Assembly (NCBI RefSeq): GCF_004138485.1
Contig: NZ_RYEV01000006.1
Location: 124,001-188,000, forward strand
Length of the DNA: 64,000 bases
Reading direction: 5' to 3'
Source: Peristeroidobacter soli
Lineage (GTDB): Bacteria > Pseudomonadota > Gammaproteobacteria > Steroidobacterales > Steroidobacteraceae
In this document: piece after piece, positions 4,347-59,663 of the stretch
How the letters are laid out: every line of letters begins with the position of its first letter
How positions within the stretch are numbered: position 1 is the first letter of the stretch
Notes under the pieces: model-generated
What the model saw: only the letters and a program-made list of their open reading frames with translations
The model's database searches: none
What the model was told of the DNA's origin: nothing
Program-made: the position numbers and the translations under genes

Positions 4347-6590
4347 ATGCCTACTCAACCCCCTTTGAACTTCGAAGGCGTCGAGCAGCAACCGCTCCGT
4401 ACCTTCACCGAGAAGGCGTACCTCGACTATTCGATGTACGTCATCCTCGACCGCGCTCTGCCGCACATCGGCGACGGCTTGAAGCCGGTGCAACGGCGCA
4501 TCGTTTACGTCATGAGCGAGCAGGGCTCGTGGCAGGCCGCGAAACACAAGAAAGCCGCCCGCGCGATCGGCGACGTCATCGGTAAATATCATCCGCACGG
4601 CGACGCGGCGTGCTACGAAGCGATGGTGCTGATGGCGCAGCCGTTCTCGTACCGGTATCCGCTGGTCGACGGTCAAGGCAACTTCGGTCATCCCGACGAT
4701 CCGAAATCGTTCGCCGCCTATCGTTACACCGAAGCGCGTCTGACGAAGTATTCCGAGCTGCTGCTGTCCGAGCTGGGCCAGGGCACGGTGGAGTGGGTGC
4801 CGAACTTCGACGGCACGATGGAAGAGCCGAAGCTGTTGCCGGCGCGCGTGCCGAACATCCTGTTGAACGGCGCGACCGGTATCGCGGTCGGCATGGCGAC
4901 CGACATCCCGCCGCACAACCTGCGCGAAGTCGTCAGCGCCTGTATCAAGTTGCTCGAAGATCCGGACACGCCGCTGCGCGAGCTGATGAAGGACGTGAAG
5001 GGCCCGGACTTCCCGACCTACGGCGAGATCATTTCGCCCAAGGCCGACATCAAACAGATCTACGAGACCGGCAACGGCACGTTCCGTGCGCGCGCCACCT
5101 ACGAGCTGGAGGACGGCGAGATCGTCGTCACCTCGCTGCCGTATCAGGTGTCGGGCGCGAAGATTCAGGAGCAGGTGGCGGCGCAGATCAATAACAAAAA
5201 GCTGCCCATGGTCGAGAACATCAAGGACGAGTCCGACCACGAGAATCCGACCCGCATCGTGATCGTGCCCAAGAACAATCGGGTGGACCTGGTGCAGGTG
5301 ATGAATCACCTGTTCGCCACCACCGATCTGGAGCGCACCTATCGCGTCAACCTGAACATCATCGGTCTCGACGGCAAGCCGCGAGTGATGGGGCTGAAGG
5401 AGCTGCTGGAAGAGTGGCTCAAGTACCGCATCGACACCGTCACGCGCCGGCTGCAGTGGCGCCTCGACAAGGTGAAGGCGCGCATGCACATCTTGGAAGG
5501 CTTGCTGGTCGCCTTCCTGAACCTGGACGAAGTGATCCGGATCATTCGGCGCGAGGACGAGCCGAAGCCGGTCTTGATGAAGCGCTTCAAGATCACCGAG
5601 ATCCAGGCCGACGCGATTCTGGACACGCGTTTGCGTCACCTCGCCAGGCTGGAAGAAATGAAGATCCGCGGCGAGCAGGACGAGCTGGCGGCGGAACAGG
5701 ACCGTCTCGACAAGCTGCTCGGCAGCAAGGCCAAGCTGAAGAAGCTGGTGCGCGACGAGCTGGAGGCGGATGCGAAGGAATTCGGCGACGACCGTCGCAC
5801 CAAGATCGTCGAGCGCGCGGCCGCGGTCGCCATCGACGAGACCGAGCTGGTGACGACCGAGCCGACGACGGTGATTCTGTCCGAGCGTGGCTGGGTACGC
5901 GCGGCGAAGGGCCACGAAATCGATCCGACGTCGATTTCATACAAGACCGGCGACGCGTTCCTTGCCGCGGCGAAGGGCAAGAACACGCAGCAGGCCGTGT
6001 TCCTGGACAGCACGGGCCGCACGTACACATTGATCGCGCATTCGCTGCCGTCGGCGCGTGGTAACGGCGAGCCGCTGTCCGGCCGTCTCGATCCGCCGGA
6101 AGGCGCGACGTTCTCCGGCGTGCTCATCGGCGAGGCCGAAGAAAAGTGCGTGCTGGCTTCCGACGCAGGCTACGGCTTCATCGTGAATCTGGGCGAGCTG
6201 CACTCACGTAACAAAGCGGGCAAGGCCGTGCTCAAGGTGCCGGAGGGCAGCAAGTCGCTCGCGCCGGCGCTGGTGCCCGCCCATGAAAAGGCCCTGGTCT
6301 GCGCGACCAGCAGCGAAGGCAAGATGCTGGTGTTCCCGGTGAAGGATCTGCCCGAGTTGCCGAAGGGCAAGGGCAACAAGATCTTCGGCGTGTCGCCCAA
6401 GGGGGATGAGACGATGACCGCGATCGCCGTCATCACTCCGGAGCAGAATCTCGTGGTCCGCTCCGGCGATCGCAAGATGACCCTCAAGTACGCCGACCTC
6501 AAGGAATACAAGGGCGAGCGCGCTCAGCGCGGCGCCGTGTTGCCGCGAGGCTGGAGAAAGGTCGACAAGCTGGACGTCGAGCCTGCCTGA
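4347..6590 (+). CDS. parC: DNA topoisomerase IV subunit A
   Basis: Predicted 747 aa, usual ParC length. It is the DNA-cleaving subunit of topoisomerase IV. The breakage-reunion domain includes [11 protein letters not shown] (quinolone-determining region), and the catalytic tyrosine is Tyr127 in [11 protein letters not shown]. The C-terminal third is the beta-pinwheel DNA-wrapping domain. At the position matching E. coli ParC Ser80 the residue is Ala87, while the nearby Glu is kept; Ser here normally anchors the quinolone water-metal bridge. The gene ends 16 bases from the convergent AraC-type regulator, and a strong hairpin spans the junction. Confidence 0.96.
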
Positions 6591-6598
6591 TGCGAAAC

Positions 6599-6628
6599 GT
6601 CCGCGCTCAGCGTTGCTTGAGCGCGGAC
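6599..6628. terminator. Bidirectional hairpin between parC and the AraC-type gene
   Basis: An 11-base perfect inverted repeat, GTCCGCGCTCA (6599-6609) and TGAGCGCGGAC (6618-6628), has an 8-base loop. It sits directly after the parC stop and overlaps the last codons of the convergent regulator gene. There is no long T tract, so strength as an intrinsic terminator is uncertain. Confidence 0.55.
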
Positions 6629-7638
6629 CGCAAGGTCGCCGAGGGCGATTCGCCGAACAGCTTCTGATAGTTGATCGCGAATCGCCCGCCATGATGCATC
6701 CAGTAGCGATGCGCCACTTCGATCACCTGCACGCCCTCGCGCGCTCCCGCCAATAAGTCCTGACGAGCCTGCTCGAATCTTTTCTCCCGCAGCCAGCGCA
6801 TCGGCGTGCTGCTGCGAAATCGTTTGAATCCATAGTGCAGTGTCCGCGCCGGAACCCCCGCCGCCTTGACGATGTCGTCGAGCCGGATGTCGTCGGTCAG
6901 GTGCTGTTGCATGAAACGTTCGGCGCGATGGACGAAGCCCGGCACGATGCTGGACTTGCTGAGGTTGGCTACCTTGTCTGGGAACAGCATGGTTCGGAGC
7001 ATGGTGATGAAGGTGTTCTCCACGCCGGCGCGCACGTTCTCCGAACTCATCAGCGTTCCGCCGCGATTGAACTCGTTGCAGATGAAGCCGATGTAGTCGA
7101 GCAGGCTCTCGCTGGATTCATCGATGCTGGTCGGATCGAGCCCTTGCGCCAGTTTCTCGTTGCAGGTCGCGTCCGAGGTTTCGATGCGGTGGCGGGGAAT
7201 GCCGACCGCCAGGTGCGCGTCTTTCTCGTAGTGGGTGAATCGATAGCCGACGTGCGGGCTCATCAGCATCATGGTGCCGGCGCTGAGATCCCAGCTGCGC
7301 TCTCGGGAATGCATCTGCATCGTCCCGCGCAACGGGATGACCAGCACGAAATGACTGCGGCGAGGCTCGTTGACCAGCACGTCCAGCTCGCCGCCGTACG
7401 TGATCTGATTGAACGAGACCTGCGACAGCCGGCCGGCGCTGTGACGAAAGTCCAGCAGCTGCCGCTCGTGATGCAGGCGAATGTGATGGGGAAAGAAGAC
7501 GCGGCTGACGCTCGCCACCGCGGCTTGCGCGTCGATGGATTCGGTGCGCGACGACTTCCCCTCGGGCGATCCGGCCTGAGGCGCAATGAAGTAATCGTCG
7601 GCCGACATGCGGCTGAGAGTCGGAGAGAGTGACTGCAT
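6607..7638 (-). CDS. AraC-family transcriptional regulator
   Basis: Predicted 343 aa. The C-terminal ~100 residues form the double helix-turn-helix AraC DNA-binding domain: IRLDDIVKAAGVPARTLHYGF is the first recognition region, then FAINYQKLFGESPS. The N-terminal part resembles the AraC-binding-like (cupin) domain found in regulators of aromatic or steroid catabolism; it contains FFPHHIRLHHERQ and SHFVLVIPLRGTMQ. The ligand cannot be told from sequence. It lies downstream of the SnoaL-like and MFS genes on the same strand, so it may regulate the divergent receptor/F420 operon. ATG 7638 was chosen; an internal ATG at 7608 is an alternative. Confidence 0.85.
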   Translation of the reverse strand: MQSLSPTLSRMSADDYFIAPQAGSPEGKSSRTESIDAQAAVASVSRVFFPHHIRLHHERQLLDFRHSAGRLSQVSFNQITYGGELDVLVNEPRRSHFVLVIPLRGTMQMHSRERSWDLSAGTMMLMSPHVGYRFTHYEKDAHLAVGIPRHRIETSDATCNEKLAQGLDPTSIDESSESLLDYIGFICNEFNRGGTLMSSENVRAGVENTFITMLRTMLFPDKVANLSKSSIVPGFVHRAERFMQQHLTDDIRLDDIVKAAGVPARTLHYGFKRFRSSTPMRWLREKRFEQARQDLLAGAREGVQVIEVAHRYWMHHGGRFAINYQKLFGESPSATLRSALKQR

Positions 7639-7716
7639 GATCGCGCTACACCACTGCCGTAGTCATGGGGAGAAGTCCCCTTACGGATGAGTAGCGGATT
7701 CCTTGCGAAAACTGGC

Positions 7717-8148
7717 TCACATCGGCTCGAAAGCAACCTTTGCTCCGGGGCGCAGCACCTTCGCCAGCGCGAGAAAATCCCAGCAATCCAGGTTCAAGCG
7801 GATCTTGTCATCGACCAGTTCATAGCGCGACAGGCCGGTGAAGCGCGTTGCCCGGCCGGTGCAGTCGGCACCCTCGAAGTCACCGCGCCAGGTGCCGGTG
7901 ATGATCCATTCCGACGCCGCCTGATTGCCCGAGCCGAAGCGCACTGGAAACTGCAGGTAAAAATTCGGGAGCGTGGCGTAGACGTGACGGGCGAAGTCGC
8001 GCAGCCCCGCGTGACCGCGCGACGTCACGTTGAATGCCAGGTCGATGTAGGTGCAGTCGGGCGTGAACAGCGCGCACAGCGCGTCCAGATTCTGTGAGTT
8101 CCAGGCACTCGCCAGCGAATCGAACAGAACATCGACGGATTGTTTCAT
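7717..8148 (-). CDS. SnoaL/NTF2-like small protein
   Basis: Predicted 143 aa. It shows the NTF2-like (cone-shaped alpha+beta) pattern: LFDSLASAWNSQNLDALCALFTPD, then YIDLAFN, GHAGLRDF, and a beta-rich C-terminal half with WIITGTWRGDF. Families of this fold include SnoaL-like cyclases, ketosteroid isomerases and uncharacterised catabolic proteins; which activity applies cannot be decided here. The start ATG at 8148 overlaps the stop of the upstream MFS gene by four bases (ATGA), so the two are translationally coupled. A longer open frame upstream is just the MFS coding sequence read in another frame. Confidence 0.75.
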   Translation of the reverse strand: MKQSVDVLFDSLASAWNSQNLDALCALFTPDCTYIDLAFNVTSRGHAGLRDFARHVYATLPNFYLQFPVRFGSGNQAASEWIITGTWRGDFEGADCTGRATRFTGLSRYELVDDKIRLNLDCWDFLALAKVLRPGAKVAFEPM

Positions 8149-9362
8149 GAAAGTCTCGCGCTCGAAGCTTTGATCAGACGCAGTGGATTGCCGGCGGCCA
8201 GGTGTCGCCCGATCGCAATGAGGATCAGCGTCGCCGCGGGCAGAGTGGTCGCGGCGTAATAGAGCGACGTGATCGATGCCGTGCCTTTGATCAGCCCGAT
8301 CACATAGGTGCCGAGTCCGATGCCGACCATCTGTGCCGTGATCATCATCGAAGCGATCCACGCGACCTGCTGAGGAAATGCGCCGGCGGCATAGGCGACC
8401 AGCATCGGGAAATAGGCCGAACAGGCGAATCCCGCGAACGCGAAAGCGCCGATCGTGCCGGCCGCGCTGTCCGCGAGGGGCAACAGAAAAAACGCTGCGG
8501 CCATCAGAGGTGGCAGCGCCAGCAGGAACGTGAGCGGCGGCAGACGAATGACGATGAACGAAGCGAGCAGCCGGCCGCCGGTCAACGCGCCCCAGAAACA
8601 CGTGAGAGCAAGCGAGGCGGTCGCGGCATCCAGCCCGCGCTCCTCCTGGATGAACAGCATGGCCCAGTTGGAGAAGATGCCTTCGGCGACCGAATAGATC
8701 ACCGCGATGGCTGCGCAGATCCAGAACAGCGAGTGTCGTGCTGGTCGAACTTCAGTGGCGCCGGTTGCTGCCTCGCTCGCTGAGATGTGCGGGAAGTCGG
8801 CGAGCAGCGCCGTCAGCAAGACGATGAGCGTTGCCGCCGATAGCAACAGCACGCCGAGCAGCCAATTATCGTGTTGAGCGAAGGTCGACAGGTAGATCGG
8901 CGCGAGCATCATCCCGACACCCACGATCGTATGCAGTGCGGTGAGCGCCGTGTTGCTCACTGCTGGAAACAAAGCGACCGGGTACGCGTTGAGCGGCCCG
9001 CTGCCCAGACCGATGCCCAAGCCGATGCAGCCGGTCGTGATCATCAGCGCCGAGAGCGCGTGTTCAGGTGACAGCGTAACGCTGGCAGCCAACGCAAACT
9101 GCGCCACAAACAAACAGAGCAGCGCGATCGTCAGCAGACGTTTGGCGCCCAATACATTCGTCAGCATGCCGCCCGCCACGCCGCCGACAATGGCGCTCAG
9201 CAGTTGCGGAAGATAGATCGCGCCGTATTGCGCATCGCTGAAGCCGTGCAATTGTTTGAGCAGCGCGCTGCTCGCGGGCACGCCCACGAGCGTCATGCCC
9301 AATATCAATCCGCCGGCGTACACGCTGAACGCCGCGCCTGTTCCGTTGTAGGAATGATTCAT
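8145..9362 (-). CDS. MFS transporter
   Basis: Predicted 405 aa with about twelve hydrophobic segments, the first starting near residue 9 (FSVYAGGLILGMTLVG) and the last ending a few residues from the C-terminus. Glycine-rich GLGIGLGSGPLNAYPVALFP resembles the conserved MFS loop region. It is an inner-membrane transporter of unknown substrate. ATG 9362 is preferred over the ATG at 9377 because a GGG stretch lies just upstream. It is divergent from the TonB-dependent receptor and shares a 283-base intergenic region with it, which suggests transport of the same compound through both membranes. Confidence 0.85.
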   Translation of the reverse strand: MNHSYNGTGAAFSVYAGGLILGMTLVGVPASSALLKQLHGFSDAQYGAIYLPQLLSAIVGGVAGGMLTNVLGAKRLLTIALLCLFVAQFALAASVTLSPEHALSALMITTGCIGLGIGLGSGPLNAYPVALFPAVSNTALTALHTIVGVGMMLAPIYLSTFAQHDNWLLGVLLLSAATLIVLLTALLADFPHISASEAATGATEVRPARHSLFWICAAIAVIYSVAEGIFSNWAMLFIQEERGLDAATASLALTCFWGALTGGRLLASFIVIRLPPLTFLLALPPLMAAAFFLLPLADSAAGTIGAFAFAGFACSAYFPMLVAYAAGAFPQQVAWIASMMITAQMVGIGLGTYVIGLIKGTASITSLYYAATTLPAATLILIAIGRHLAAGNPLRLIKASSARLS

Positions 9363-9488
9363 TGCCCGAGAGTACATGGCGCGAGAGCGTCGAGCCGTGG
9401 TCGGTCCGGACGTTGCAAACAAAGTTGCGTGAAGTGGATGGCGGCTGAAAAGCCAAACGTGTCGCGACTCACACTGCGTCGGGTGGCT

Positions 9489-9528
9489 TGCAGAAAGCGT
9501 ACTGACTTGCCGGAACTGGCTTTCTGCA
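9489..9528. promoter_or_regulatory. Inverted repeat in the MFS/receptor divergent promoter region
   Basis: Perfect 10-base arms TGCAGAAAGC (9489-9498) and GCTTTCTGCA (9519-9528) are separated by 20 bases, giving 30 bases centre to centre, close to three helical turns. The repeat lies 127 bases before the minus-strand MFS start and about 120 bases before the receptor start, where a shared operator would be expected. The protein that binds it is not known; the nearby AraC-type regulator is a candidate. The remainder of 9363-9645 holds no gene I can support. Confidence 0.45.
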
Positions 9529-9648
9529 GGCGAGTGCGCGCAGGGAAGATGCATCTCGCCGGTCGTGCCAGTGCTGGGCAGGATGCCCGAATGTCGGGAG
9601 CGCAGGGACGCGCAGGACCGGCCACGATTATCAACGATGGAGCCAATG

Positions 9649-12042
9649 ATGACATTCGCTACAGTGGGCCGCTGCGCGGTTCATGGATGGATCGCGGCAG
9701 CCTGCGTGCCGATGGGAATGGGCTGCGGAGGTTCGGTCTGGGCGCAGGATGTGTCCGATACCGTACTGGAGGAGCTGACCGTCACTGCTCGCAAACGCGA
9801 GGAGAATGTTCAGACCACGCCGCTGTCGGTGAGCGCATTCGGTGAGCGCGCGCTGCAGGAACGGAATATTCAGTCGGCGGCCGATGTCACGGGCCACGTG
9901 CCGAACGTGCAGTTCGACAGCGTCGCGAGCGAGTCTGGCGGTGGCGCGGCGACACAGATCGCGATTCGCGGCATCGGTCAGACGGACTATGTGCTGACAG
10001 TCGAACCGGGCGTCGGCATCTATCTCGACGGCGTGTATGTGGGCAAGTCGATCGGCTCGCTGCTCGACACGGTCGATATCGAACGACTGGAAGTACTGCG
10101 CGGTCCGCAGGGAACGCTGTTCGGTAAGAACACGCTCGGCGGCGCGATTCAACTCGTGTCACGACGGCCCGGCACCGAGCCGGAGTTCTACAGTGAAGTG
10201 GTCACGGGGGCGTTCGACCGTTTCGACGTGAAGACCGGCATGTCGTCACCCGTCAATGACAGCCTGCGACTGCGCTTCACTGGCAGCTATCAGAGCCGCG
10301 ACGGTCATGTGAAGCGGGTGTCTCCCGTCACCGGTCGGGACACCGGCAAGCGACAAGGCAATAAAGATCAGCTGTCGGGTCGTCTGGTTGCCGAGATCGA
10401 TCTGGCGGACAACCTGCTCGCGACGGTTGCAATCGACGGCTCGCGCATCGATGAACAAGCCGCCGGTGCGATGGTGCTGAAGGCGGACGAGAACGGCGGC
10501 TTCTCTTCGCTGTACAACGCAGCGGTGCCCGGTGGCGTGTGCCTGCCCAGCGCCGGGGCGGCGCGCTTCACCAACCCGCTCTGTTACAACAGCCAGTACG
10601 ACCGCTCGTTGTCGTCGCGTGAGACCACGAACAACAACGATGCCGCGAACTTCTCGAAGGCCAATATCTGGGGCACGTCGCTGACGTTGGACTGGTCGCT
10701 CGATGCATTCAACGTGCGCTCGATCTCCGCCTACCGCCGGGTGAGCGTCGACATCCTGCAGGAGCTGACAGGATCGGCGTACTACGTCGACACCATCGGC
10801 CAAAGCATCGGCACGAAGCAGCTCAGTCAGGAGCTGCAGCTCACGGGCGATCTGCTCGATGACCGGTTACATCTCGTCGCGGGTGCCTACTACCTGCATG
10901 AAGAAGGCGAGCAGCGCTTCCCGGTGGACATCACGCTGGTGCAATTCCTCTCCGGTGGCGCCATCGAGAATGACAGCTACGCTGCCTTCAGTCAGGTGAC
11001 TTACGACCTGACCGATCAGCTGTCGTTGACCGGTGGCTTGCGCTATACGCACGAGGTGCGCGAGTTCAATCCAGGCCTGCAGGTGCTGCAAGGTTATAAC
11101 GGTGGCTCATCGACTCGCATTCCCGGGTTCGTGAACCCCGTCGCCGGCGCATTCGGCGCACCCGGCACGCCGCTGTTTCCCGCAGGCTGGTACGAGCGCA
11201 CGAGCGATTCAACCACGCCGATGGCGTCGCTCAACTATGTCTTCGCCAACGACGCGATGGCCTATGTCTCCTATGCAAAGGGCTTCAAGGGCGGCGGCTT
11301 CACGATGCGTTACTTCCCGCCCGTGTTGCCGGCGGCGGGCACCGATCCCGACGACATCGTTTCCTACGCGGGGCCGGAAACCGCGGTGACGTATGAAGCG
11401 GGCTTGAAGAGCGAATGGTTCCAGCGCCGGCTGCGCTTGAACGTTGCCGCCTTCCAGACGGACTACGACGACATTCAAGTCACTTACAACATCGATCCGG
11501 ATGGCGCCGGGCCGATCGGCAACTTCGTGCCGGTGCTGTCGAACGCCGCATCGGCGCAGATCCGGGGCATCGAGATCGAAGCCTCACTGGCCGCGACCGA
11601 TTGGTTACGCGTCGACTCGTCCGTCGGTTACGTCGATGCCGAGTACACCTACTTCTCGCCGCTGGCACGAGCGAACTATCCCGGGATCGAGTCCGCTGAG
11701 TTGCCGAACACGCCGGAATGGACCGCGAACATCGGCGGCACCGTGACCTTCATGGACAACGTCGCGGGTCGACTCGCGCTGCGTCTCGATTACAGCTATC
11801 GCAGCGAGCAGTTCAAGGAGTTCACCAACAGTCCGATTCTGAAGCAGGACGCGTACGGCGTGCTGAACGCGGCGCTCACCTATGTGACGCCGGGCGCACA
11901 GTGGCAAGTGTCGTTGGGCGGCACGAACCTCACTGATGAAGCGTACATGGTCAACGGCGTCGCCAATCCCGGCACGGGATTCTTCCAGGCGGCGGTGTCG
12001 CGACCGCGCGAGTGGTATCTCAGCCTGCGGTACGGTTTCTAA
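9649..12042 (+). CDS. TonB-dependent outer-membrane receptor
   Basis: Predicted about 797 aa. The signal peptide is the hydrophobic stretch before the probable cleavage in SVWAQ-DVSD. A TonB-box/plug region follows: EELTVTARKREENVQ, AIRGIGQTDY, then RLEVLRGPQGTLFGKNTLGGAI. The 22-strand barrel ends in the aromatic C-terminus SLRYGF. The start at 9649 has GGAG six bases upstream; ATGs at 9646 and 9637 are alternatives. Family knowledge: such receptors import bulky or scarce ligands by TonB energy; many of this subclass in catabolic proteobacteria take up terpenoids or steroids rather than iron. Its stop overlaps the next gene's start (TAATG), so it heads the F420 operon. Confidence 0.93.
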   Translation: MTFATVGRCAVHGWIAAACVPMGMGCGGSVWAQDVSDTVLEELTVTARKREENVQTTPLSVSAFGERALQERNIQSAADVTGHVPNVQFDSVASESGGGAATQIAIRGIGQTDYVLTVEPGVGIYLDGVYVGKSIGSLLDTVDIERLEVLRGPQGTLFGKNTLGGAIQLVSRRPGTEPEFYSEVVTGAFDRFDVKTGMSSPVNDSLRLRFTGSYQSRDGHVKRVSPVTGRDTGKRQGNKDQLSGRLVAEIDLADNLLATVAIDGSRIDEQAAGAMVLKADENGGFSSLYNAAVPGGVCLPSAGAARFTNPLCYNSQYDRSLSSRETTNNNDAANFSKANIWGTSLTLDWSLDAFNVRSISAYRRVSVDILQELTGSAYYVDTIGQSIGTKQLSQELQLTGDLLDDRLHLVAGAYYLHEEGEQRFPVDITLVQFLSGGAIENDSYAAFSQVTYDLTDQLSLTGGLRYTHEVREFNPGLQVLQGYNGGSSTRIPGFVNPVAGAFGAPGTPLFPAGWYERTSDSTTPMASLNYVFANDAMAYVSYAKGFKGGGFTMRYFPPVLPAAGTDPDDIVSYAGPETAVTYEAGLKSEWFQRRLRLNVAAFQTDYDDIQVTYNIDPDGAGPIGNFVPVLSNAASAQIRGIEIEASLAATDWLRVDSSVGYVDAEYTYFSPLARANYPGIESAELPNTPEWTANIGGTVTFMDNVAGRLALRLDYSYRSEQFKEFTNSPILKQDAYGVLNAALTYVTPGAQWQVSLGGTNLTDEAYMVNGVANPGTGFFQAAVSRPREWYLSLRYGF

Positions 12043-13040
12043 TGACGACGTTCAGCATGACCGTGACCGGCTCGCTGCCGATGCGGGAGTATGTTCCCAT
12101 CGCGCAGCAAGCCGAGCAGTATGGGTTCGATGAGATCCACGTTTCCGACGATCTCATCATGCGACCGGCGTGGCCCATCCTCACCTTGATGGCCACGCAT
12201 ACAGCGCGCGTGAAGTTGGGGCCCTTCATCGTCACGCCTCAGGTGGCGAATCCCGTGTATCACGCCGCGAACCTCGCGGCGCTCGATGAGCTCAGCAACG
12301 GGCGCATGGTGTGCGGGCTCGGGCGCGGCGGTTTCAATCAGATGCTCGGTGTCGCGAAGGCGGTGAAGCCCGTGCGCGCGCTGAAGGAAGCATATCTGCT
12401 GATGGAACACGTGCTGGCAGCGAAGACCGAGCCCTTCGACGGCGAGTTCTTCCAGGCGACCGCGGATCTGAAGTTCCAATTCCCGGCGCCCAGGCGCATC
12501 CCGATCTTCATCGGCACGTGGGGGCCGCAGATGGCGCGTATGGCAGGCGGCGTCGCGTCGGGCATCAAGGCGGATTGCATCGGCAGCGGCGCGTACTTGT
12601 CGAAGCTGCGAAACGAGATGCTCGCTGGCGCCATCGAAGCGGGCCGCGATCCGTCGAGTGTGAAGCTCATCGTCGGCCCGTTGTCGTCGATCGCGGATGA
12701 CCGGGCGGGCGCGGAAGATTGCATTCGCGGCATGCTCGCCCTGATTCAACCGTTCCTCGCGCCGATGACGACCGAGGCGGGTCTCGATCCAGAAGCGATC
12801 GACGCGGCATATCGCGCGTACGTCAGTGGCGACTTGGTCCGTGCAAAAGCACTCGTGCCGCAGAAGGCGATCAGAGCGTTCACGTTGACGGGAACGCCGC
12901 GGGATGTGATCGAGCAAGTCGAAGAGTTGATCGCGGCTGGTGCTGACCATGTGTCGTTCGGCACGCCTACCGGTCCCGATCCTGCGCGTGCCATGCATCT
13001 CGTCGGCACGCAGGTCCTGCCTCACTTCCGACGGAACTGA
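12042..13040 (+). CDS. LLM-class (Mer-like) F420-type oxidoreductase
   Basis: Predicted 332 aa, a luciferase-like (bacterial luciferase/methylene-H4MPT reductase) TIM barrel. Seen: FDEIHVSDDL near the N-terminus, VKLGPFIVTPQVANPV, the signature NGRMVCGLGRGGF, and RIPIFIGTWGPQMARMAGGVASGI. Enzymes of this superfamily use F420 or FMN; placement next to F420 biosynthesis genes favours F420. The substrate is unknown; operon linkage to a TonB receptor suggests reduction or oxidation of the imported molecule. The start overlaps the receptor stop by one base, and the next gene starts three bases after its stop. Confidence 0.85.
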   Translation: MTTFSMTVTGSLPMREYVPIAQQAEQYGFDEIHVSDDLIMRPAWPILTLMATHTARVKLGPFIVTPQVANPVYHAANLAALDELSNGRMVCGLGRGGFNQMLGVAKAVKPVRALKEAYLLMEHVLAAKTEPFDGEFFQATADLKFQFPAPRRIPIFIGTWGPQMARMAGGVASGIKADCIGSGAYLSKLRNEMLAGAIEAGRDPSSVKLIVGPLSSIADDRAGAEDCIRGMLALIQPFLAPMTTEAGLDPEAIDAAYRAYVSGDLVRAKALVPQKAIRAFTLTGTPRDVIEQVEELIAAGADHVSFGTPTGPDPARAMHLVGTQVLPHFRRN

Positions 13041-13043
13041 CCC

Positions 13044-13727
13044 GTGCACTCGTCGATACGTATCAAGACAATCGCTGTGCTCGGTGGCACCGGTCGCGAG
13101 GGCAGAGGGCTGGCGCTGCGTTGGGCGCGTGCGGGCTATCACGTCGTCATCGGTGGTAGGGACCTGGTGCGCGCAGAGACGACGGCAACGACTCTCCGCG
13201 AAAAACTGGATCCGATGACTCGAATCAGCGGTGCGCTCAATCTCTCGGCCGCTCAGCAAGCGGATGTGATCGTGCTCGCTGTGCCATTCGCCGCTCAGCT
13301 CGAAACCGCTCTGCAGGTACGCAGCGGGCTGGAGGGCAAGGTCTTGATCGATGTGACCGTGCCGCTGGTGCCACCGAAGGTTGAGGTTGCGCAACTGCCA
13401 GGCGGATCTGCAGTGGAGCGATTGCAGGCGGCGCTCGGGCCGGAGGTTGCGGTCGTGTCGGCGTTTCAGAATGTGTCGGCTCATCACCTTGCCGATCTGG
13501 ATCACGCGATCGACTGCGACGTGTTGATCTGCGCCGACGACGATCGAGCCGCACAGACTGCGGTGGAGCTGGCGGAGGCTGCCGGTCTGCAGGGCTGGCG
13601 CTGCGGTCCGCTCAAGAACTCGCTGGTGACGGAGGGTCTCACGTCTCTGCTGATCGCCATCAATCGTCGTTACAAAGTGCCCAGCGCCGGCATTCGAATC
13701 ACGGGCGTCCCGACAGGCGCGCATTGA
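13044..13727 (+). CDS. npdG: NADPH-dependent F420 reductase
   Basis: Predicted 227 aa, GTG start. The N-terminal Rossmann motif is IAVLGGTGREGRGLALRWARAG, followed by VVIGGRD, then ADVIVLAVPF and KVLIDVTVPL. The C-terminal half has the pattern seen in F420H2:NADP oxidoreductases, including VVSAFQNVSAHHLADL and the CGPLKNS stretch. It would exchange hydride between NADPH and oxidised F420, charging the cofactor for the upstream LLM enzyme. It is tightly packed in the operon; its stop overlaps cofC by one base (TGATG). Confidence 0.85.
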   Translation: MHSSIRIKTIAVLGGTGREGRGLALRWARAGYHVVIGGRDLVRAETTATTLREKLDPMTRISGALNLSAAQQADVIVLAVPFAAQLETALQVRSGLEGKVLIDVTVPLVPPKVEVAQLPGGSAVERLQAALGPEVAVVSAFQNVSAHHLADLDHAIDCDVLICADDDRAAQTAVELAEAAGLQGWRCGPLKNSLVTEGLTSLLIAINRRYKVPSAGIRITGVPTGAH

Positions 13728-14332
13728 TGGCGACGCAGGCGATCGTCGCGTTGAAACATCCGGATCGAGCGAAGTCGCGACTGTCGGCGCAGCTGACCGC
13801 GCAGTCGCGACGTGAGTTGTATTTTCGAATGGCCGGGCATGTGCTGAAAACGCTGCTTCGGACTGAGTCGATTGCGACGGTGGCGGTGGCGACGGCCAGT
13901 GACGAAGTGGCGCGTTTTGCGTCCGAGTTGGGTGCTGCGGCGATTGATCTCTACGTGGATCTCGGTACGCGCGCTGCGTATCAGCAGGCGATTGCGATCC
14001 ATCGGCCGGGAGGGGCGCTGTTGCTCATCAACGGCGATCTGCCTTTTCTGCAGCCGGAGGATGTTGAGCTGTTGTCGCGTGATCGAGATGACATCGTCAT
14101 TGCGCCAGATCGTCATGGTCGCGGCACGAATGCGCTTTGGTGTCGCACGCCGGGGATGATCGAGCCGCTGTTTGGCGAGGACAGCTTCAAGCGTCATTGT
14201 GTGGCCGCTCGAGCTACGGGGATCACGCCGCGTATCGTGAAGACACTGGGGCTGGGATTCGATGTCGATGATCCGCGGGATCTCGAATTGATCGGCCGCA
14301 GTGGTGTGGCTCGTCCGAGTTTGCACTCGTGA
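13727..14332 (+). CDS. cofC: 2-phospho-L-lactate guanylyltransferase (CofC type)
   Basis: Predicted 201 aa, a nucleotidyltransferase-fold protein. Seen: AIVALKHPDRAKSRLS at the N-terminus (nucleotide-binding loop), then LLINGDLPFLQ with the metal-binding Asp, IVIAPDRHGRGTNALW, and LGFDVDDPRDLELI. This matches CofC/FbiD, which guanylylates the three-carbon acid that becomes the F420 side chain. Bacterial versions can use phospholactate, phosphoenolpyruvate or 3-phosphoglycerate, and I cannot tell which from sequence alone. ATG 13727 overlaps the npdG stop by one base; an adjacent upstream TTG is less likely. The stop overlaps the start of the FO synthase gene by four bases (GTGA). Confidence 0.9.
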   Translation: MATQAIVALKHPDRAKSRLSAQLTAQSRRELYFRMAGHVLKTLLRTESIATVAVATASDEVARFASELGAAAIDLYVDLGTRAAYQQAIAIHRPGGALLLINGDLPFLQPEDVELLSRDRDDIVIAPDRHGRGTNALWCRTPGMIEPLFGEDSFKRHCVAARATGITPRIVKTLGLGFDVDDPRDLELIGRSGVARPSLHS

Positions 14333-16644
14333 GCCTGGCTGCAATCGGTGAGCGGGCGACGGCGGAGCAGGCGATGACACTGCTCGATGCCGACTGGCGC
14401 TCTCTCGCTCCCGCCGCGGCGGAGCGTCGAGATGCGGGGTGGGGCTCGCTCGTCACCTATTCGCGCAAGGTGTTCATTCCGCTGACACGATTGTGCCGGG
14501 ATGTTTGTCACTACTGCACGTTCGCCACGACGCCTCGCTCGTTGGCGCGGGCTTACTCGAGCACCGACGATGTCCTCGCGATTGCTCGCACAGGCGTGGA
14601 TGCGGGTTGCAAGGAAGCTTTGTTTACGCTCGGGGATCGGCCGGAGACGCGTTATTCGCATGCGCGTCGAGCGCTGGCGGAGCTGGGGCATGAATCGACG
14701 CTGTCTTATTTGAAAGAGGTTGCCGCGCGCGTCCGGGCAGAAACGGGGCTCTTGCCGCATCTGAATCCGGGCGTGATGGATGAGGCGGAGTTTCGGTCGT
14801 TGCGCCCTGTGGCGCCGTCGATGGGATTGATGCTGGAGTCCACCTCGACACGATTGTCACAACGCGGCGGGCCGCACTTCGGGTCGCCGGATAAGCTTCC
14901 CGAACGCCGACTGGCGAGTCTGCGCGCGGCGGGGGTTGCGAAGGTGCCGATGACGAGCGGCATCTTGATCGGGATTGGTGAGACGCGCGTTGAGCGTATC
15001 GAGTCGCTGCTGGCGTTGCGGTCGCTGCAGGATGAGTTCGGTCATCTGCAGGAAATCATCATCCAGAATTTCCGTGCCAAGCCCGGCACGCTGATGGCGG
15101 ATGCCCCCGAGCCTTCGATGGACGAATTGGCGTGGACGGTTGCGGTGGCGCGTTTGCTGTTCGGGCCGGGCATGAGCATCCAAGTGCCGCCGAATCTTTA
15201 CGCCGGCGATTTCACTGAGCTGGTGGATGTGGGCATCAATGACTGCGGCGGCATTTCGCCGGTGACGCCGGATCACGTGAACCCCGAGGCGCCGTGGCCG
15301 CACGTGGATCGGTTGGCTGAAAGGCTGGAGCGGCGCGGCTCGACTTTGGTCGAGCGATTGACTGTGTATCCGCGGTACATCGAGCGGCGAGATGAATGGA
15401 TCGATCCATCGCTGCACGCACCGGTGCTGCGCTGGAGCGATGGCGCGGGGCTGGCGCGGATCGGTACGTGGTCGCCGGGTTCAACACAGGTGCCAAGTGA
15501 GGAAGAGCGGCGGGAACTTGCAAGCACTTTCTCTCGCACCAGTTCGATCGTATCGACGGTGAATGTCTTGGCGCGCGGCGGGCGCGTAGGCGAGGCGGCG
15601 GTTGCTGAGTTGTTCACCGCGCGGGGCGCGGACTTTCTTTACCTTCAGACGGCGGCGGACGAGTTGCGTCGAGAGCAGGTGGGGGATGACGTGACGTACG
15701 TCGTCAATCGAAACATCAACTACACCAACATCTGTCTGTACCGCTGCACGTTCTGCGCGTTTTCGAAAGGGCGCTCGCACGAAGCGCTGCGAGGACCGGC
15801 GTATGTCATGGACATGGAGGAGATCGGTCGACGCGTCGACGAAGCGTGGCAGCGAGGAGCCACTGAAGTTTGCATGCAAGGTGGCATTCACCCCAGCTTC
15901 GACGGCAACACCTATCTCGAGATCTGCCGAACCGCGAAGCGAGTGCAGCCTGACATGCACGTGCATGCGTTCTCGCCGTTGGAAATCACGCATGGGGCGC
16001 GCACGCTCGACATCTCCGTGAGTGAGTTTCTAGCTGAACTGCGAAGTGTGGGATTGGGATCGCTGCCGGGAACGGCGGCGGAGATTTTAGATGATGACGT
16101 GCGGCGGGTGATTGCACCCGACAAGCCGGATACGCAGAGCTGGCTACAAGTGATGCGTACGGCGCACAGGCTCAATCTCCGAAGCACCGCGACCATCATG
16201 TTCGGTCACGTCGATGGCTATCTGCACTGGGCGCGCCATCTGCAGCGAGTGCTGGAGCTGCAGGCGGAAACAGGTGGCTTCACGGAGTTCGTGCCACTGC
16301 CATTCGTTCATAGGGAGGCACCGATGTACCTCAAAGGCCGCGCTCGTCGCGGCCCCACGTTGCGCGAAACCGTTCTCATGCATGCGGTTTCACGACTCGT
16401 GCTCGGGTCGAGCATTCGTAACATCCAGGTGTCGTGGGTGAAGATCGGGCCGGAGTGGGCGCAGCGTTGCTTGCAGGCGGGCGCGAACGACCTGGGCGGT
16501 ACGTTGATGAACGAGTCCATCAGCCGGGCCGCCGGCGCGGGTCATGGGCAGGAATTCGCCGCGGCACGAATGGCCGGGCTGACTGGAGAGATCGGGCGGC
16601 GAGCGATACAGCGGACGACGCTGTACCGGAACGTACCGGACTAG
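14329..16644 (+). CDS. fbiC: Bifunctional FO synthase (fused CofG-CofH)
   Basis: Predicted 771 aa, GTG start. It makes FO, the 5-deazaflavin chromophore of F420, from tyrosine and 5-amino-6-ribitylaminouracil. Two radical-SAM domains are visible. The N-terminal CofG-like half has Cys56/60/63 in CRDVCHYCTF; the C-terminal CofH-like half has Cys469/473/476 in CLYRCTFCAFSKG. Both are CxxxCxxC clusters. Archaea usually keep CofG and CofH as separate proteins; fusion is typical of actinobacterial FbiC, so this copy may have arrived by transfer. It is the last gene of the operon. CofD and CofE, needed to finish F420, are not in this window. Confidence 0.93.
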   Translation: MSLAAIGERATAEQAMTLLDADWRSLAPAAAERRDAGWGSLVTYSRKVFIPLTRLCRDVCHYCTFATTPRSLARAYSSTDDVLAIARTGVDAGCKEALFTLGDRPETRYSHARRALAELGHESTLSYLKEVAARVRAETGLLPHLNPGVMDEAEFRSLRPVAPSMGLMLESTSTRLSQRGGPHFGSPDKLPERRLASLRAAGVAKVPMTSGILIGIGETRVERIESLLALRSLQDEFGHLQEIIIQNFRAKPGTLMADAPEPSMDELAWTVAVARLLFGPGMSIQVPPNLYAGDFTELVDVGINDCGGISPVTPDHVNPEAPWPHVDRLAERLERRGSTLVERLTVYPRYIERRDEWIDPSLHAPVLRWSDGAGLARIGTWSPGSTQVPSEEERRELASTFSRTSSIVSTVNVLARGGRVGEAAVAELFTARGADFLYLQTAADELRREQVGDDVTYVVNRNINYTNICLYRCTFCAFSKGRSHEALRGPAYVMDMEEIGRRVDEAWQRGATEVCMQGGIHPSFDGNTYLEICRTAKRVQPDMHVHAFSPLEITHGARTLDISVSEFLAELRSVGLGSLPGTAAEILDDDVRRVIAPDKPDTQSWLQVMRTAHRLNLRSTATIMFGHVDGYLHWARHLQRVLELQAETGGFTEFVPLPFVHREAPMYLKGRARRGPTLRETVLMHAVSRLVLGSSIRNIQVSWVKIGPEWAQRCLQAGANDLGGTLMNESISRAAGAGHGQEFAAARMAGLTGEIGRRAIQRTTLYRNVPD

Positions 16645-16653
16645 CTGGCCGGG

Positions 16654-16715
16654 ACATGTCGAAATGTTAAAGTTTTTCGACATGTTCTCCGGACCTGTCG
16701 ATGGCATCGACAGGT
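16654..16715. terminator. Two tandem hairpins between fbiC and fimX
   Basis: Hairpin 1 has 11-base perfect arms, ACATGTCGAAA (16654-16664) and TTTCGACATGT (16675-16685). Hairpin 2 has 10-base perfect arms, ACCTGTCGAT (16693-16702) and ATCGACAGGT (16706-16715), with a 3-base loop. They fill the 78-base gap between convergent genes and share a TGTCGA core. They are probably bidirectional terminators, although neither has a classic T tract. Confidence 0.6.
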
Positions 16716-16722
16716 GGCCGTT

Positions 16723-18774
16723 TCAGCCCATCACCACCTGCTCCGGCTCATTCACGAAGTAACCTTGAATGAACTCGATGCCGAGCTGCCACAACACCGC
16801 CATCGTGTTCGCATCTTCGACCCGCTCGGCGATGGTCGCGACGTTGCGGCCCTTCGCCTGATCGACCAGCTCACGCACGCGCTGTTGCAGCCCCTGGTCG
16901 ACCGCCAGGCCTTGCATCAGGGTGCCGTCGACCTTGATGTAGTCGATGGGCAGGTGAGCGATCAGACGTTGCGGGTCGCGGCCGGTGCCGAAATGCTCGA
17001 TTGCAAACCGGAAGCCGATCTTGCGCAGGCCATTGGCCAGCTCGCTGGTGTCTCCCAGATATTCCGTGGCGATCTGTTCGCTGACCTGGAATGCGAGACG
17101 ACCCGGCTCGATACGAGACGATTTGAGCTGGTTCAACAGCCACTGCAGCAGCGACTTGTCGCGCACCGAATCTTTCGACAAGCGTACGAACAACTGTTTC
17201 ACCGGGCGGCTGGCGATGAAGGTCATGGACGCGCCGATCACCCAGCGGTCGATGTTCTTCATCAGGTCGTTGCGCTCGGCCGCGGCCATGAATTCAGCGG
17301 GCAGCAGTTCTTCGCCCTGCTCGTCGACCATGCGCACCAGCACGTCGAACATGCCCTTGTCTTCGCCGAGCAGGCTCGCGATGGGCTGCTGCATGAGGCG
17401 GAAGCGGTTTTCCATGAGCGCGGCGCGGATGCGCTTGACCCACAACTCATCGGCCGCTTCCATCTTCGTGGATTCTTCGCGGTGGTCGACGATGTTCACT
17501 CGTCCGCCACCCGCGGTCTCGGCGGTGCGGCGGGCGGACAGGGCGTCGACGATGGCGTTGCCGGCGTTGGGCTGGCGCGGGTCGATCAGGCCGATGCCGA
17601 CGCTGCACGTGCAGGAGATTTGTTTCTCGCTGAGCCGGAACACCTGCGTGCCCGCTTTGCGGATCAGGTTCGTCGCCCAAACTTCGATGTCACGCGCGGT
17701 GCCGCGTTCCATCAACAGCAGCAATGTGCCGTCGCCGAAGCGGCCGAACAGATCGGACGCCTGACGCGTCTCGCCGATCAAGCCGGCGAATTGGGCAATG
17801 AAATCTTCGAGCGCCAGCGGGCCGATGTCGTCGGTGATGGCCTCGAGCTTGTCGGGCTGAATCGCGACCAGCTCGCGCACGCCGGCCTTGATGGGTTGAG
17901 CCAGTGTCTTCTTCAGATGTTCGATGAAGAAGCGACGTTGCAGGGCGCCGGTGGTCGCATCACGCTCCAGCGCTTCGGTCAGTTGTTCGTTGAGATTGCC
18001 CGACTCGCGCTTGCGCGCGGCGAAACACAATCGCACGGCGGGCTCACCGTCGAACTCGGTGCGCGACAGCTCCATTTCCAGCGGCACGCTCGAACCATCG
18101 TTCAACAGCGCGTTCGCCTTGAGCGCGTGATTCGACCATTTGCCTTGCAGACACGCGACCAGCGCGCCCTTGAGCGCGGCGTGAGCGTCGGCGTCGAAGA
18201 CATCCATCAGCGGCGTGCCGACCAGCGCGTCCGCGTCGGTGAAGCCATACAAATCCAGCCAGGCCGGATTGGCGTCGACGATGATGCCTTCCTGCACGTG
18301 GGCGATGGCGTCGGCGGAGCCGGCCATGAAGGATTTCAGTTGATCTCGATATTCGCGCGCCGAGCTGATGGTGCTGTTGAGCGCGCGGGCCTGGCGGTTC
18401 GCTTCGAGCTCGCGGGCGACGACGCCGCGCAGGCGATTGGGATTCATCAACGTGACCACGTCGCGCGCGCCCTGTTGCATGGCGTTGGCGATGATCTCCT
18501 CATCGACCTGATCGCGCGCGAACAGCACCGGCACGTCGGCGCCGTACTGCTTGGCCACCGTCATCACCTTGGTCATGTCGGCCGGGTCCGGGCCGACGAA
18601 CGCCACCAGCATGTGCGCATTGATCTGCTGCAAGGCTTCGCCGAGGTCGGTCAGCTCCTTGATCCAGTTGCAGCGGACCGCCACGCCGGCATTGCGCAGG
18701 TTGCTGTTGATCGCCTCGACGTTGTCCTGGTGGCGGGTCAGGACAATCATCGGCACGGCGCTAGATTCGGCCAA
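16723..18774 (-). CDS. fimX: FimX-like protein: receiver-PAS-degenerate GGDEF-degenerate EAL
   Basis: Predicted 683 aa, close to FimX of Pseudomonas and Xanthomonas. Order: receiver-like domain (~1-125) lacking a clear phospho-Asp pocket, PAS (~145-270), GGDEF-like (~275-440) and EAL-like (~455-683). The GGDEF site reads RFGDGTLLLLM and the EAL signature reads FDVLVRMV, with Asp in place of the first Glu. Both catalytic sites therefore look dead, as in known FimX, which binds c-di-GMP through EAL and controls type IV pilus assembly at the pole. The start is TTG at 18774, supported by GGAG seven bases upstream. It lies 27 bases after epmB and is probably co-transcribed with it. Confidence 0.8.
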   Translation of the reverse strand: MAESSAVPMIVLTRHQDNVEAINSNLRNAGVAVRCNWIKELTDLGEALQQINAHMLVAFVGPDPADMTKVMTVAKQYGADVPVLFARDQVDEEIIANAMQQGARDVVTLMNPNRLRGVVARELEANRQARALNSTISSAREYRDQLKSFMAGSADAIAHVQEGIIVDANPAWLDLYGFTDADALVGTPLMDVFDADAHAALKGALVACLQGKWSNHALKANALLNDGSSVPLEMELSRTEFDGEPAVRLCFAARKRESGNLNEQLTEALERDATTGALQRRFFIEHLKKTLAQPIKAGVRELVAIQPDKLEAITDDIGPLALEDFIAQFAGLIGETRQASDLFGRFGDGTLLLLMERGTARDIEVWATNLIRKAGTQVFRLSEKQISCTCSVGIGLIDPRQPNAGNAIVDALSARRTAETAGGGRVNIVDHREESTKMEAADELWVKRIRAALMENRFRLMQQPIASLLGEDKGMFDVLVRMVDEQGEELLPAEFMAAAERNDLMKNIDRWVIGASMTFIASRPVKQLFVRLSKDSVRDKSLLQWLLNQLKSSRIEPGRLAFQVSEQIATEYLGDTSELANGLRKIGFRFAIEHFGTGRDPQRLIAHLPIDYIKVDGTLMQGLAVDQGLQQRVRELVDQAKGRNVATIAERVEDANTMAVLWQLGIEFIQGYFVNEPEQVVMG

Positions 18775-56300: not shown

Positions 56301-57455
56301 TCATGAGGCAAGGACCCGATCGATGAGAGCGTCCGGCAATTGCCACGCGCGCAGTGTATTTACGTCGACTGAGGTACTTTCCTGGATCGTCGTCGGGGTG
56401 CGCGAGAAGCGGGGCGCCGGCGCGGGTTGAACGATTCCGGAATGAGTGACGAAGGTGCCTCGGGCGACGTTATGCGGGTGATCGATGGCTTCGCTCATGG
56501 GCAGCACCGGCGCGAAGCACGCATCGCTGTTCTCCAGCAGCGCGCACCAATGGGCCTGCGGCTGGCTCTGAAAGATTTTCTCGAAGCGCGCACGCATTTC
56601 CGGCCAGCAGGCCGGGTTCCAATGATCGGGATAATCGCTGATCGGAATGCTCAGCTTGTTGAGTAGCACAGCGAAGAACTGAATCTCCAGCGCGCCCACG
56701 CAAATCCATTTGTCATCGGCACAGCGATAGGTGTCGTAGAAGGGCGCGCCCCCGTCGAGCAGATTCGCATGTCGCTGCTCGAGCCAATTGCCGCCCGCGC
56801 GCATCGCGAACATCATGCTCATCAGCGACGCGGCACCGTCCGTCATCGCGCAGTCGACAACTTGCCCGACGCCGGTACTCCGCGCATTCAACAAAGCTGC
56901 GAGTACACCCATCGCGAGATACAACGCGCCGCCTCCGAAGTCACCGACCAGATTCAGCGGCGGCGTCGGTTTCTCCGCGCTACCGACCGAATGCAGCGCG
57001 CCGGACAGCGCGATATAGTTGATGTCGTGGCCAGCGGTGTGCGCGTTCGGCCCGTATTGTCCCCAGCCCGTCATGCGTCCATAAACCAGCTTGGGATTTT
57101 CCTGCAGCAGCACGTCCGGCCCGAGGCCGAGCTTTTCCAGGACACCGGGACGGAAACCTTCGATCAGCACGTCGGCGTTTTTCGCCAAGGCGCGGCAGAT
57201 TTCGACACCGACGCTTTGTTTCAAATCCACGGTCAGCACGCTGCGGCCGCGGTCGAGAATCGCGTCGAACGGTTGAGCCGGTGCGTTGGGACGCGAGATG
57301 CGAATGACTTGGGCGCCGAGATCGGAGAGCAGCATGCCGCAGAAGGGCGCTGGGCCCAGGCCTGCGAATTCCAGCACGCGCACGCCATGCAACGGACCGT
57401 TTGCAGTTGCGCGCGTGATCGCTGCGGACGATTTCATTGGTTCGGTCGAATTCAT
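56301..57455 (-). CDS. CaiB/BaiF CoA-transferase family, alpha-methylacyl-CoA racemase-like
   Basis: Predicted 384 aa. The N-terminus GVRVLEFAGLGPAPFCGMLLSDLGAQVIRI is typical of the family. His143 (GHDINY) and Asp172 (GDFGGG) match the catalytic pair of AMACR (His126/Asp156 in M. tuberculosis MCR). It would epimerise 2-methylacyl-CoA so that branched steroid or isoprenoid side chains enter beta-oxidation. An internal ATG at 57437 is an alternative start. Divergent from the TetR-type regulator. Confidence 0.85.
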   Translation of the reverse strand: MNSTEPMKSSAAITRATANGPLHGVRVLEFAGLGPAPFCGMLLSDLGAQVIRISRPNAPAQPFDAILDRGRSVLTVDLKQSVGVEICRALAKNADVLIEGFRPGVLEKLGLGPDVLLQENPKLVYGRMTGWGQYGPNAHTAGHDINYIALSGALHSVGSAEKPTPPLNLVGDFGGGALYLAMGVLAALLNARSTGVGQVVDCAMTDGAASLMSMMFAMRAGGNWLEQRHANLLDGGAPFYDTYRCADDKWICVGALEIQFFAVLLNKLSIPISDYPDHWNPACWPEMRARFEKIFQSQPQAHWCALLENSDACFAPVLPMSEAIDHPHNVARGTFVTHSGIVQPAPAPRFSRTPTTIQESTSVDVNTLRAWQLPDALIDRVLAS

Positions 57456-57598
57456 CGGGCACCGTCGGAGACAATGCCGAAAATTCTAGTCCAGAGCGTG
57501 GCATCGCGTACAACTTCAGCGCGCTTGCAGGAGCGCGCGGCGCCGGGTTTCGCGCCAAGGTTGATTTCTACAGTCCGCCATCGACTAACATAAGCCCA

Positions 57599-57612
57599 AT
57601 CAATCATTTGAT
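57599..57612. promoter_or_regulatory. Candidate operator upstream of the TetR gene
   Basis: A short inverted repeat ATCAA-TCAT-TTGAT lies 13 bases before the TetR start, in the divergent region between AMACR and the TetR regulator. Arms are only five bases, so it is a weak candidate for autoregulation. Confidence 0.25.
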
Positions 57613-57624
57613 CTGAAAACGACC

Positions 57625-58299: not shown

Positions 58300-58443
58300 T
58301 ACGATTTGAGGCGTCAGCGACCCTGGCGCCACACGTCAGTCCCATACCTCCGATTGCATAATCAATAGCACTCGACTTGCAGCGTCGCCCTCATCTGGCT
58401 ACGGCCGGCCAGAGAAACGCAAACTGTCCGCAGTGCCCTTTCT

Positions 58444-59244: not shown

Positions 59245-59271
59245 AGTCGGTCACCCCTTGTCTGGATCGAA

Positions 59272-59597
59272 TCAGAATCTCGCCCGGATCGAAACGCCCG
59301 CGGTCGCCGGAGCACCCCAACCGCGCCGATGCCGGTCGCGTTGGCCTGGGCCATGCTGCGGTACCCCTCGTCGGTTACGTTATCACCGTACACGGCGAAG
59401 GTGTACCGGTTCGATGGATCGGTCCATTCCGCGCGCAGCGAGAGCAACTGCTAGCCGTCCTGGGCAAACCGCACGCCGATACTGCCGCTGAAGTCCGGCG
59501 AATTCTGCATCCTGAAGCCGCTCGAATCGTTCGGCACGTTCACGAACAAGCCATAGCCGAAGCCGCACAGCACGGGGTGCAGCGGATGAAGCGGATC
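59272..59597 (-). pseudogene. Remnant of a TonB-dependent receptor C-terminus
   Basis: Read on the minus strand, the region gives NVPNDSSGFRMQNSPDFSGSI, then FAQDG, an in-frame TAG stop at 59451-59453, LLSLRAEWTDPSNRYTFAVYG, DNVTDEGYRS, and ATGIGAV. A one-base shift near 59315-59320 then leads to GAPATAGVSIRARF and a TGA at 59272-59274. This matches the end of a TonB-dependent receptor, but with a nonsense codon, a frameshift and an apparent internal deletion between SGSIGVRF and FAQDG. No upstream barrel or plug remains. The rest of 59245-59663 shows no functional gene. Confidence 0.7.
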
Positions 59598-59663
59598 AGA
59601 ATGTAAGCATCTACGCGGTGGTTCCGTCACTCCCCGACAGAGCGTTGAATCTGATCGTGAAGA

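Follow-up and report, generated by a model that had tools for sequence, protein, structure and literature searches.

The role of the cofactor F420 outside Actinobacteria was treated as open in a 2021 review, according to which neither an F420H2-dependent reductase nor an F420-reducing dehydrogenase of non-actinobacterial F420-making bacteria had yet been the subject of experiments (PMC8498797). Since then at least one such enzyme has been solved, that of Thermomicrobium (9hav), which is among the fold matches of the oxidoreductase described here. One of the closest described systems is Mer, the F420-dependent methylene-H4MPT reductase, whose named active-site residues are Glu6 (the proton donor), Asp96, Gln178 and Phe233 (M. 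jannaschii numbering; PMC11094777). Another is the 3PG-F420 pathway of Mycetohabitans, in which Ser162 is given as diagnostic of a 3-PG CofC (PMC8764529). The usual arrangement of the biosynthetic genes is npdG-cofE-cofD-cofC-cofGH on one strand, which we found in 42 of the best 80 genome loci of 581 confirmed CofGH relatives; cofE and cofD lie in the same locus in 59 of these 80, and in 9 neither is found despite more than 5 kb on both sides. Among 20 family loci picked by hand from the same 80, nine have cofE and cofD nearby and six have neither, again with more than 5 kb on both sides. All these gene-order counts come from tblastn with the proteins of the genome studied here, so that distant copies can be missed. 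Split F420 genes are thus a minority state overall, yet not rare in the family. The locus described below has the same enzymes, including a fused CofGH and NpdG as F420 reductase, but its cofE and cofD lie on another contig and its operon is led by genes for a TonB receptor and a luciferase-like (LLM) oxidoreductase. Among the titles listed in a survey of openly accessible literature, none is on an F420 island or on a split, exchanged F420 pathway.

In the window, that is the whole stretch of 64,000 nucleotides of Peristeroidobacter soli that was analysed, the F420 operon runs on the plus strand and begins with a TonB-dependent outer-membrane receptor (9646..12042, ATG at 9646; PF00593, 2.1e-48, and PF07715, 8.9e-19). 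It is followed by the LLM oxidoreductase, F420-type with a Mer-like fold (12042..13040, ATG start; Pfam Bac_luciferase, PF00296, 2.2e-47), npdG/fno for the NADPH:F420 oxidoreductase (13044..13727, GTG start; TIGR01915, 197.5 bits, cut-off 149.8), the guanylyltransferase gene cofC (13724..14332, TTG start; TIGR03552 (F420_cofC), 141 bits, cut-off 105) and cofGH, a fused FO synthase with two radical-SAM domains (14329..16644, GTG start; NF006687, 1107 bits, cut-off 1018). Both halves of CofGH are recognized by their own models (TIGR03550, 487 bits; TIGR03551, 534 bits), and two CxxxCxxC motifs lie at residues 56 and 469. The genes are tightly packed: the stop of the receptor gene and the ATG of the LLM gene have one base in common (TAATG), three bases separate LLM and npdG, and npdG/cofC and cofC/cofGH overlap by four bases each. 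Since npdG, cofC and cofGH all clear curated NCBIfam equivalog cut-offs, the F420 genes are no chance reading. NpdG has its closest PDB matches in the F420:NADP oxidoreductases 5n2i and 1jax, in agreement with its assignment as NpdG/Fno. An earlier, sequence-only reading had placed LLM, npdG, cofC and a fused cofGH at 12042-16644 with these spacings, and here it was right; it missed that the TonB receptor is the first gene and that an insertion of about 10 kb surrounds the operon.

A second gene group diverges from the operon at about 9360-9650 and runs leftward on the minus strand. It encodes an MFS transporter (8145..9554; PF07690, 1.1e-18), which probably starts at the ATG at 9360-9362 rather than at 9554, a protein of the SnoaL/ketosteroid-isomerase fold (7717..8157; PF07366, 1.2e-19, and fold search) and an AndR-like AraC-family regulator (6607..7638; PF14525, 1.8e-22, PF12833, 1.7e-13; NF041686 at 133.9 bits, under the cut-off of 350). 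The model of the SnoaL-fold protein has a pLDDT of 76.7, is built on no more than two sequences and resembles the SnoaL2 fold as much as that of ketosteroid isomerase. We do not commit ourselves to steroids as the substrate of the island. Promoter and terminator scans gave no more hits than shuffled sequence (2 against a mean of 2.2 and 5 against a mean of 6.3).

The sequence-only reading had also observed that CofD and CofE are not beside the operon and had suggested a genome search for their genes. The observation is true, and the search of this genome (9.37 Mb, 17 contigs, completeness 100, contamination 4.03) gave one match each, adjacent on contig C1 and above the cut-offs: cofD at C1:1245763-1246569 (TIGR01819, 267.6 bits against 257.45, a margin of 10 bits) and cofE at C1:1246647-1247303 (TIGR01916, 266.8 bits against 180.65). 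This cofED locus lies on the minus strand and consists of an enoyl-CoA hydratase (ECH) gene, cofE, cofD, a small frame and three further genes, encoding a pyridine-nucleotide-disulphide reductase with a Reductase_C domain, a citrate synthase and an MmgE/PrpD protein. The small frame we take to be ferredoxin-like, judging from its cysteines, with no profile match behind the label. CofGH has a single match in the genome. FO synthase with its CofG and CofH domains, CofC/FbiD, CofD/FbiA and CofE are all present, and the F420 pathway is accordingly predicted to be complete but split over two contigs. Contamination, listed at 4.03%, is argued against because both contigs are collinear with same-genus genomes. 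Because cofE and cofD are present, both above NCBIfam cut-offs, F420 and not FO alone is the predicted product. Of the two outcomes considered earlier, F420 or a halt at FO, the first is thereby favored. That the cell stops at FO would fit with cofD and cofE lying apart from cofGH, outside the window, but it is very improbable given that both genes are present, adjacent, above their cut-offs and conserved in two sister species; we rejected FO as sole product on the strength of these finds.

A related question is the side chain of the cofactor. The pathway might end in dehydro-F420 or 3PG-F420 instead of classical F420, an outcome that is compatible with our explanation of the locus and to which we give a small but appreciable probability. 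CofE has 252 residues and matches PF01996 only; a C-terminal nitroreductase domain of the FbiB type is missing, and the fused model PRK13294 matches CofE only at profile positions 14-243 of 449. With such a stand-alone CofE, a PEP-derived dehydro-F420 would need another reductase. In addition, the nearest solved structure of CofC is 7p97, the 3-PG enzyme of Mycetohabitans, and this likeness prompted us to consider 3PG-F420 as product. Unlike the Mycetohabitans enzyme, however, the CofC described here has Gly151 aligned with Ser162, not the Ser or Thr that marks 3-PG activation, and over 94 CofC rows, among which are the window copy and several that overlap because they come from one locus, this position holds 88 Gly, 6 Asp and neither Ser nor Thr. 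The Gly at the diagnostic position disfavors 3PG-F420.

The genome holds two PF00296 matches, of which the window LLM is the sole F420-type LLM found and the other is of the MsnO8 type. The LLM enzyme reaches 162-174 bits with the Mer (F420) models but only 20-30 bits with those whose names state FMN dependence, and the first six of its 19 solved relatives by sequence are Mer. Its structure model (22-row alignment, pLDDT 92.8) has Mer in the first eight Foldseek rows (TM 0.87-0.92), followed by F420-dependent dehydrogenases; ranks 1-18 are F420 enzymes, and FMN enzymes start at rank 19 with the first luciferase. By profile and by fold its nearest relatives are therefore F420 enzymes, and in this broad sense it belongs to the F420-dependent LLM proteins. 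A profile comparison had been suggested by the sequence-only reading, and the preference for Mer models, together with an NpdG above the TIGR01915 cut-off, bears out its F420 assignment; that the cell uses F420 with the LLM enzyme, as it also held, stands for the type of enzyme, whereas the use itself is a prediction from sequence. The enzyme might instead be an FMN-using flavin monooxygenase and a mere neighbor in a cell that makes F420. The fold is common to FMN and F420 enzymes, both kinds occur in the fold search, and the LLM enzyme, although above the Pfam cut-off, reaches no NCBIfam equivalog cut-off among the matches listed (25 of 26). Against this, the gap between Mer and FMN-named models, the first 18 fold matches and the presence of NpdG, the F420 reductase, in the same operon make such an FMN enzyme improbable.

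Mer is the best match of the LLM enzyme in sequence and fold, but both Mer equivalog cut-offs are missed (173.5 vs 276 and 162.1 vs 348.7 bits), and two of the four named active-site residues differ: Mer Glu6 corresponds to Thr7 and Mer Asp96 to Gly97, the latter inside the sequence alignment to Mer and the former by an ungapped six-residue extension of it. Relatives carry Asp and Ser at the Glu6 site. We thus ruled out Mer function; from alignment and model, the enzyme should transfer hydride with F420, but hardly to methylene-H4MPT. At E 1e-30 the LLM protein is found in one of 200 sampled family genomes, namely this one. Two of 368 other class genomes have relatives with 45-46% identity (E 1e-40), and none was found in 397 other phylum genomes (E 1e-50), both sets being samples of larger groups. 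Both class genomes with a relative also carry CofGH, a count of two that stands without a class background. One of the relatives (locus L165, from another family) adjoins a 38% relative of the SnoaL-fold protein of the island, and no other observation hints as strongly as this pairing at a common route for the LLM enzyme and the SnoaL-fold protein.

The two gene groups of the window form an inserted island of about 10.1 kb (~6589/6591..16715) with eight genes, in the order AraC, SnoaL-like, MFS, TonB receptor, LLM, npdG, cofC and cofGH. Its borders were taken from blastn (E 1e-8) of the window DNA against same-genus loci around the right-flank gene, which encodes a PAS-GGDEF-EAL protein (16723..18774, minus strand; Pfam). 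The left flank is a parC-like topoisomerase subunit gene (4347..6590, plus strand); the names parE and parC are given to the left-flank genes by sequence likeness and not by a profile match. Both flanks lie outside the island and are genus-conserved: the parC-like protein is 95% identical in G115 and G106, 93% in G074, 92% in G129 and 75% in G028, and the GGDEF-EAL protein occurs in all 14 same-genus genomes, this one counted (94% G115, 93% G106, 92% G129, 90% G074). In all five same-genus loci that could be read at both flanks (G115, G106, G129, G074 and G028) the island is missing and the GGDEF-EAL gene comes next after the parC-like one; these loci (L152-L155 and L161) have no blastn match from window position 6581-6596 to 16716-16725. 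A sixth locus (L159 of G085) is uninformative, having no parC match beside the GGDEF-EAL gene. The gap between the flanking genes is 48 bp in G074, 49 bp in G028 and 553 bp in G129; in G106 it is 2046 bp and holds another gene-like frame of 624 residues, and in G115 it is about 52 bp including 30 N and hence not clean. An empty site is thus found in relatives, short and clean in two of the five, as expected for a genomic island. Other marks of such islands are missing. The G+C content (0.626) is that of the flanks (0.627 and 0.629), no mobility gene is among the eight genes, no tRNA is in the window, and the two borders share neither a direct repeat of at least 9 bases nor an inverted repeat of at least 10. 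A plasmid donor was not found: 63 plasmid records carry a CofGH and 20 an LLM, but none of these reaches 60% identity, and the best LLM has 31%. The insertion site, with convergent genes on its two sides, may be one that tolerates insertions.

The two halves of the pathway appear to have different histories. The ECH-cofE-cofD region is collinear with G115 and G106 over about 13-14 kb, with 84-85% DNA identity in long pieces, and the proteins of the cofED operon are 84-92% identical to those of both genomes (CofE 91-92%). The genes flanking the island encode proteins 87-96% identical to their G106 and G115 counterparts; counted together, thirteen shared proteins (nine flanking ones, ECH, CofE, CofD and part of FdR) are 84-96% identical. 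CofGH of the window, in contrast, is 65% and CofC 39-40% identical to the G106 and G115 copies, while CofGH of G106, G115, G085 and L004 are mutually 76-81% identical. L004 comes from a MAG that bears the name Hydrocarboniphaga; over two DNA pieces it matches the cofGH locus of the same-genus genome G085 with 79 and 86% identity. In G106, cofGH-cofC is flanked by two stretches whose counterparts in this genome lie at L171:3471-4739 and 7939-10762, and the intervening 3.2 kb here hold no cofGH or cofC remnant and other, unrelated frames, one of them MFS-like by eye. G115 has its cofC-cofGH about 8 kb from the same anchor. Elsewhere in the genus, G028 has cofGH, cofED and npdG/cofC at three separate places, and G129 and G074 gave no match to CofE (E 1e-15) or CofGH (E 1e-60). 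The simplest account of this distribution would be that the resident cofC-cofGH near the anchor was lost or replaced in the lineage studied here and that an incoming copy arrived at parC.

Alternatively, the native cofC-cofGH could have moved to the parC site beside newly gained genes and then diverged fast, with no transfer from outside. In the CofGH tree, the window copy is sister to the G085/L004/G106/G115 cluster (99% SH-aLRT) on a long branch (0.41), and its joining G106 and G115 stays acceptable under the AU test (p 0.306, lnL difference 26.5); proof of transfer by phylogeny is thus not reached. Together with the native G+C content, these results are in line with relocation. The identities of 39-40% for CofC and 65% for CofGH, compared with 84-96% for the shared neighbors including CofE and CofD, speak against it. 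So does the accompanying gene content, since a search at E 1e-30 gave no LLM in the 199 other family genomes of the sample and npdG is above cut-off in two of the 14 genus genomes, this one and G028, and not in G106, G115 or G085. At least LLM and npdG hence appear acquired, and we regard relocation as unlikely. The reading that we prefer, and consider probable, is that a catabolic island, carrying half of an F420 pathway itself, displaced the resident cofC-cofGH and operates together with the resident cofE-cofD, where replacement by transfer may have been one event.

LLM enzymes also accompany cofC-cofGH in related genomes. G115 has an F420-type LLM by this pair, which is above the TIGR03619 cut-off, and relatives of it occur in G085 and L004. 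These proteins are 62-80% identical to one another, but they are of another family with other neighbors, and the window LLM has only short local matches to them (26-34%). One LLM of either kind is present in each of G115, G085, L004 and G028, and none at the cofGH-cofC locus of G106, so that a rule by which every cofC-cofGH pair of the genus has an adjoining LLM fails. The G106 locus likewise counts against each cassette carrying a client enzyme. PF04075 (F420H2-dependent quinone reductases) has no match here, nor in any of 14 control genomes, so that this negative does not show absence.

How might the island work? It would be a regulated uptake-and-catabolism unit of about 10 kb, inserted between parC and the GGDEF-EAL gene. 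The TonB receptor would bring in a compound, and the MFS protein would add inner-membrane transport. CofGH would make the deazaflavin FO and CofC the activated three-carbon linker, and resident CofD and CofE, from the separate operon common to the sister species, would finish F420. NpdG could then reduce F420 with NADPH, and the LLM enzyme would apply F420H2/F420 to the imported compound or its product, with the SnoaL-fold protein as a candidate for a further catalytic step and the AraC protein for control. The island copy of cofC-cofGH would in this way take the place of the pair that two sister species keep elsewhere.

The sequence-only reading had seen the interest of the locus in the sparseness of F420 in proteobacteria. 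This did not hold up, because CofGH is found in 64 of 200 sampled family genomes, this one included (E 1e-60), and Gammaproteobacteria is the label of 38 of the 113 rows in the CofGH tree. With F420 genes common in the family, we no longer took rarity for the main point. Taken singly, the enzymes are unremarkable and belong to known families; unusual are the split, apparently swapped arrangement and the little-known LLM lineage. Going further, F420 synthesis in the genus could be modular and client-driven: cofE-cofD, in a CoA-catabolic operon, would be fixed in each lineage, whereas cofC-cofGH would be swapped as a cassette, in most cases along with its own F420-dependent LLM client and with genes for uptake or catabolism. 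In the genome studied here, such a cassette would have displaced the resident one; the resulting pathway would be a composite, and a new LLM lineage the only client of the LLM kind that can be recognized. This generalization is tentative, and we hold it for possible rather than probable. A cofactor made only when its client is expressed could, as a guess, explain the trace F420 levels that the 2021 review reports for two Alphaproteobacteria (PMC8498797).

The organism offers a simple case, with one F420-type LLM, one npdG above cut-off and one cofGH in a single operon with an uptake receptor. Because LLM, npdG and cofGH share this operon and the LLM is not found in the sister species, what F420 does in a bacterium of this kind is testable by deletion of one operon. 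The arrangement suggests that a cofactor pathway can be assembled from one half that was resident and another that was acquired, and cofD and cofE missing beside cofGH should not be taken to mean that a cell makes FO only.

In the P. soli genome, cofE and cofD are located on a separate contig, C1, within a CoA-type catabolic operon (cofE-cofD locus L003, 4194-11140), and this region shares about 85% DNA identity with the same-genus genomes G106 and G115. The operon around both genes comprises an enoyl-CoA hydratase, a ferredoxin-like frame, a reductase, citrate synthase and MmgE/PrpD. In G028, a same-genus genome of 3.5 Mb in a single contig, the F420 genes are split over three far-apart sites (L117, L160, L162): one has cofGH and a luciferase-like oxidoreductase (LLM), another cofE-cofD, and a third npdG together with a CofC match.

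The parC/GGDEF-EAL gap, site of the F420 gene island in the window, may be an insertion hot spot. The G106 gap (L153, 6244-8291) holds a 2-kb insert unlike that of the window, with a single 624-residue frame; that of G129 (L154, 4862-5416) measures 553 bp and is repeated in appearance.

At the 3-PG-diagnostic position of CofC (Gly151 in the window enzyme), Asp replaces Gly in loci L019, L051, L055, L066, L068 and L083.

A catabolic cluster of CoA-transferase III, enoyl-CoA hydratase, acyl-CoA dehydrogenase and AMP-binding genes (window 56301-62450) is partially collinear with the G106 region carrying cofGH-cofC. Elsewhere, cofC-cofGH lies near a different LLM, namely in G115 (L116, 6336-11251), G085 (L114, 8282-13308) and a Hydrocarboniphaga MAG (L004, 2236-11185). 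These three LLMs share 62-80% mutual identity, the one in G115 being of the TIGR03619 type, and their surroundings look like catabolic clusters.
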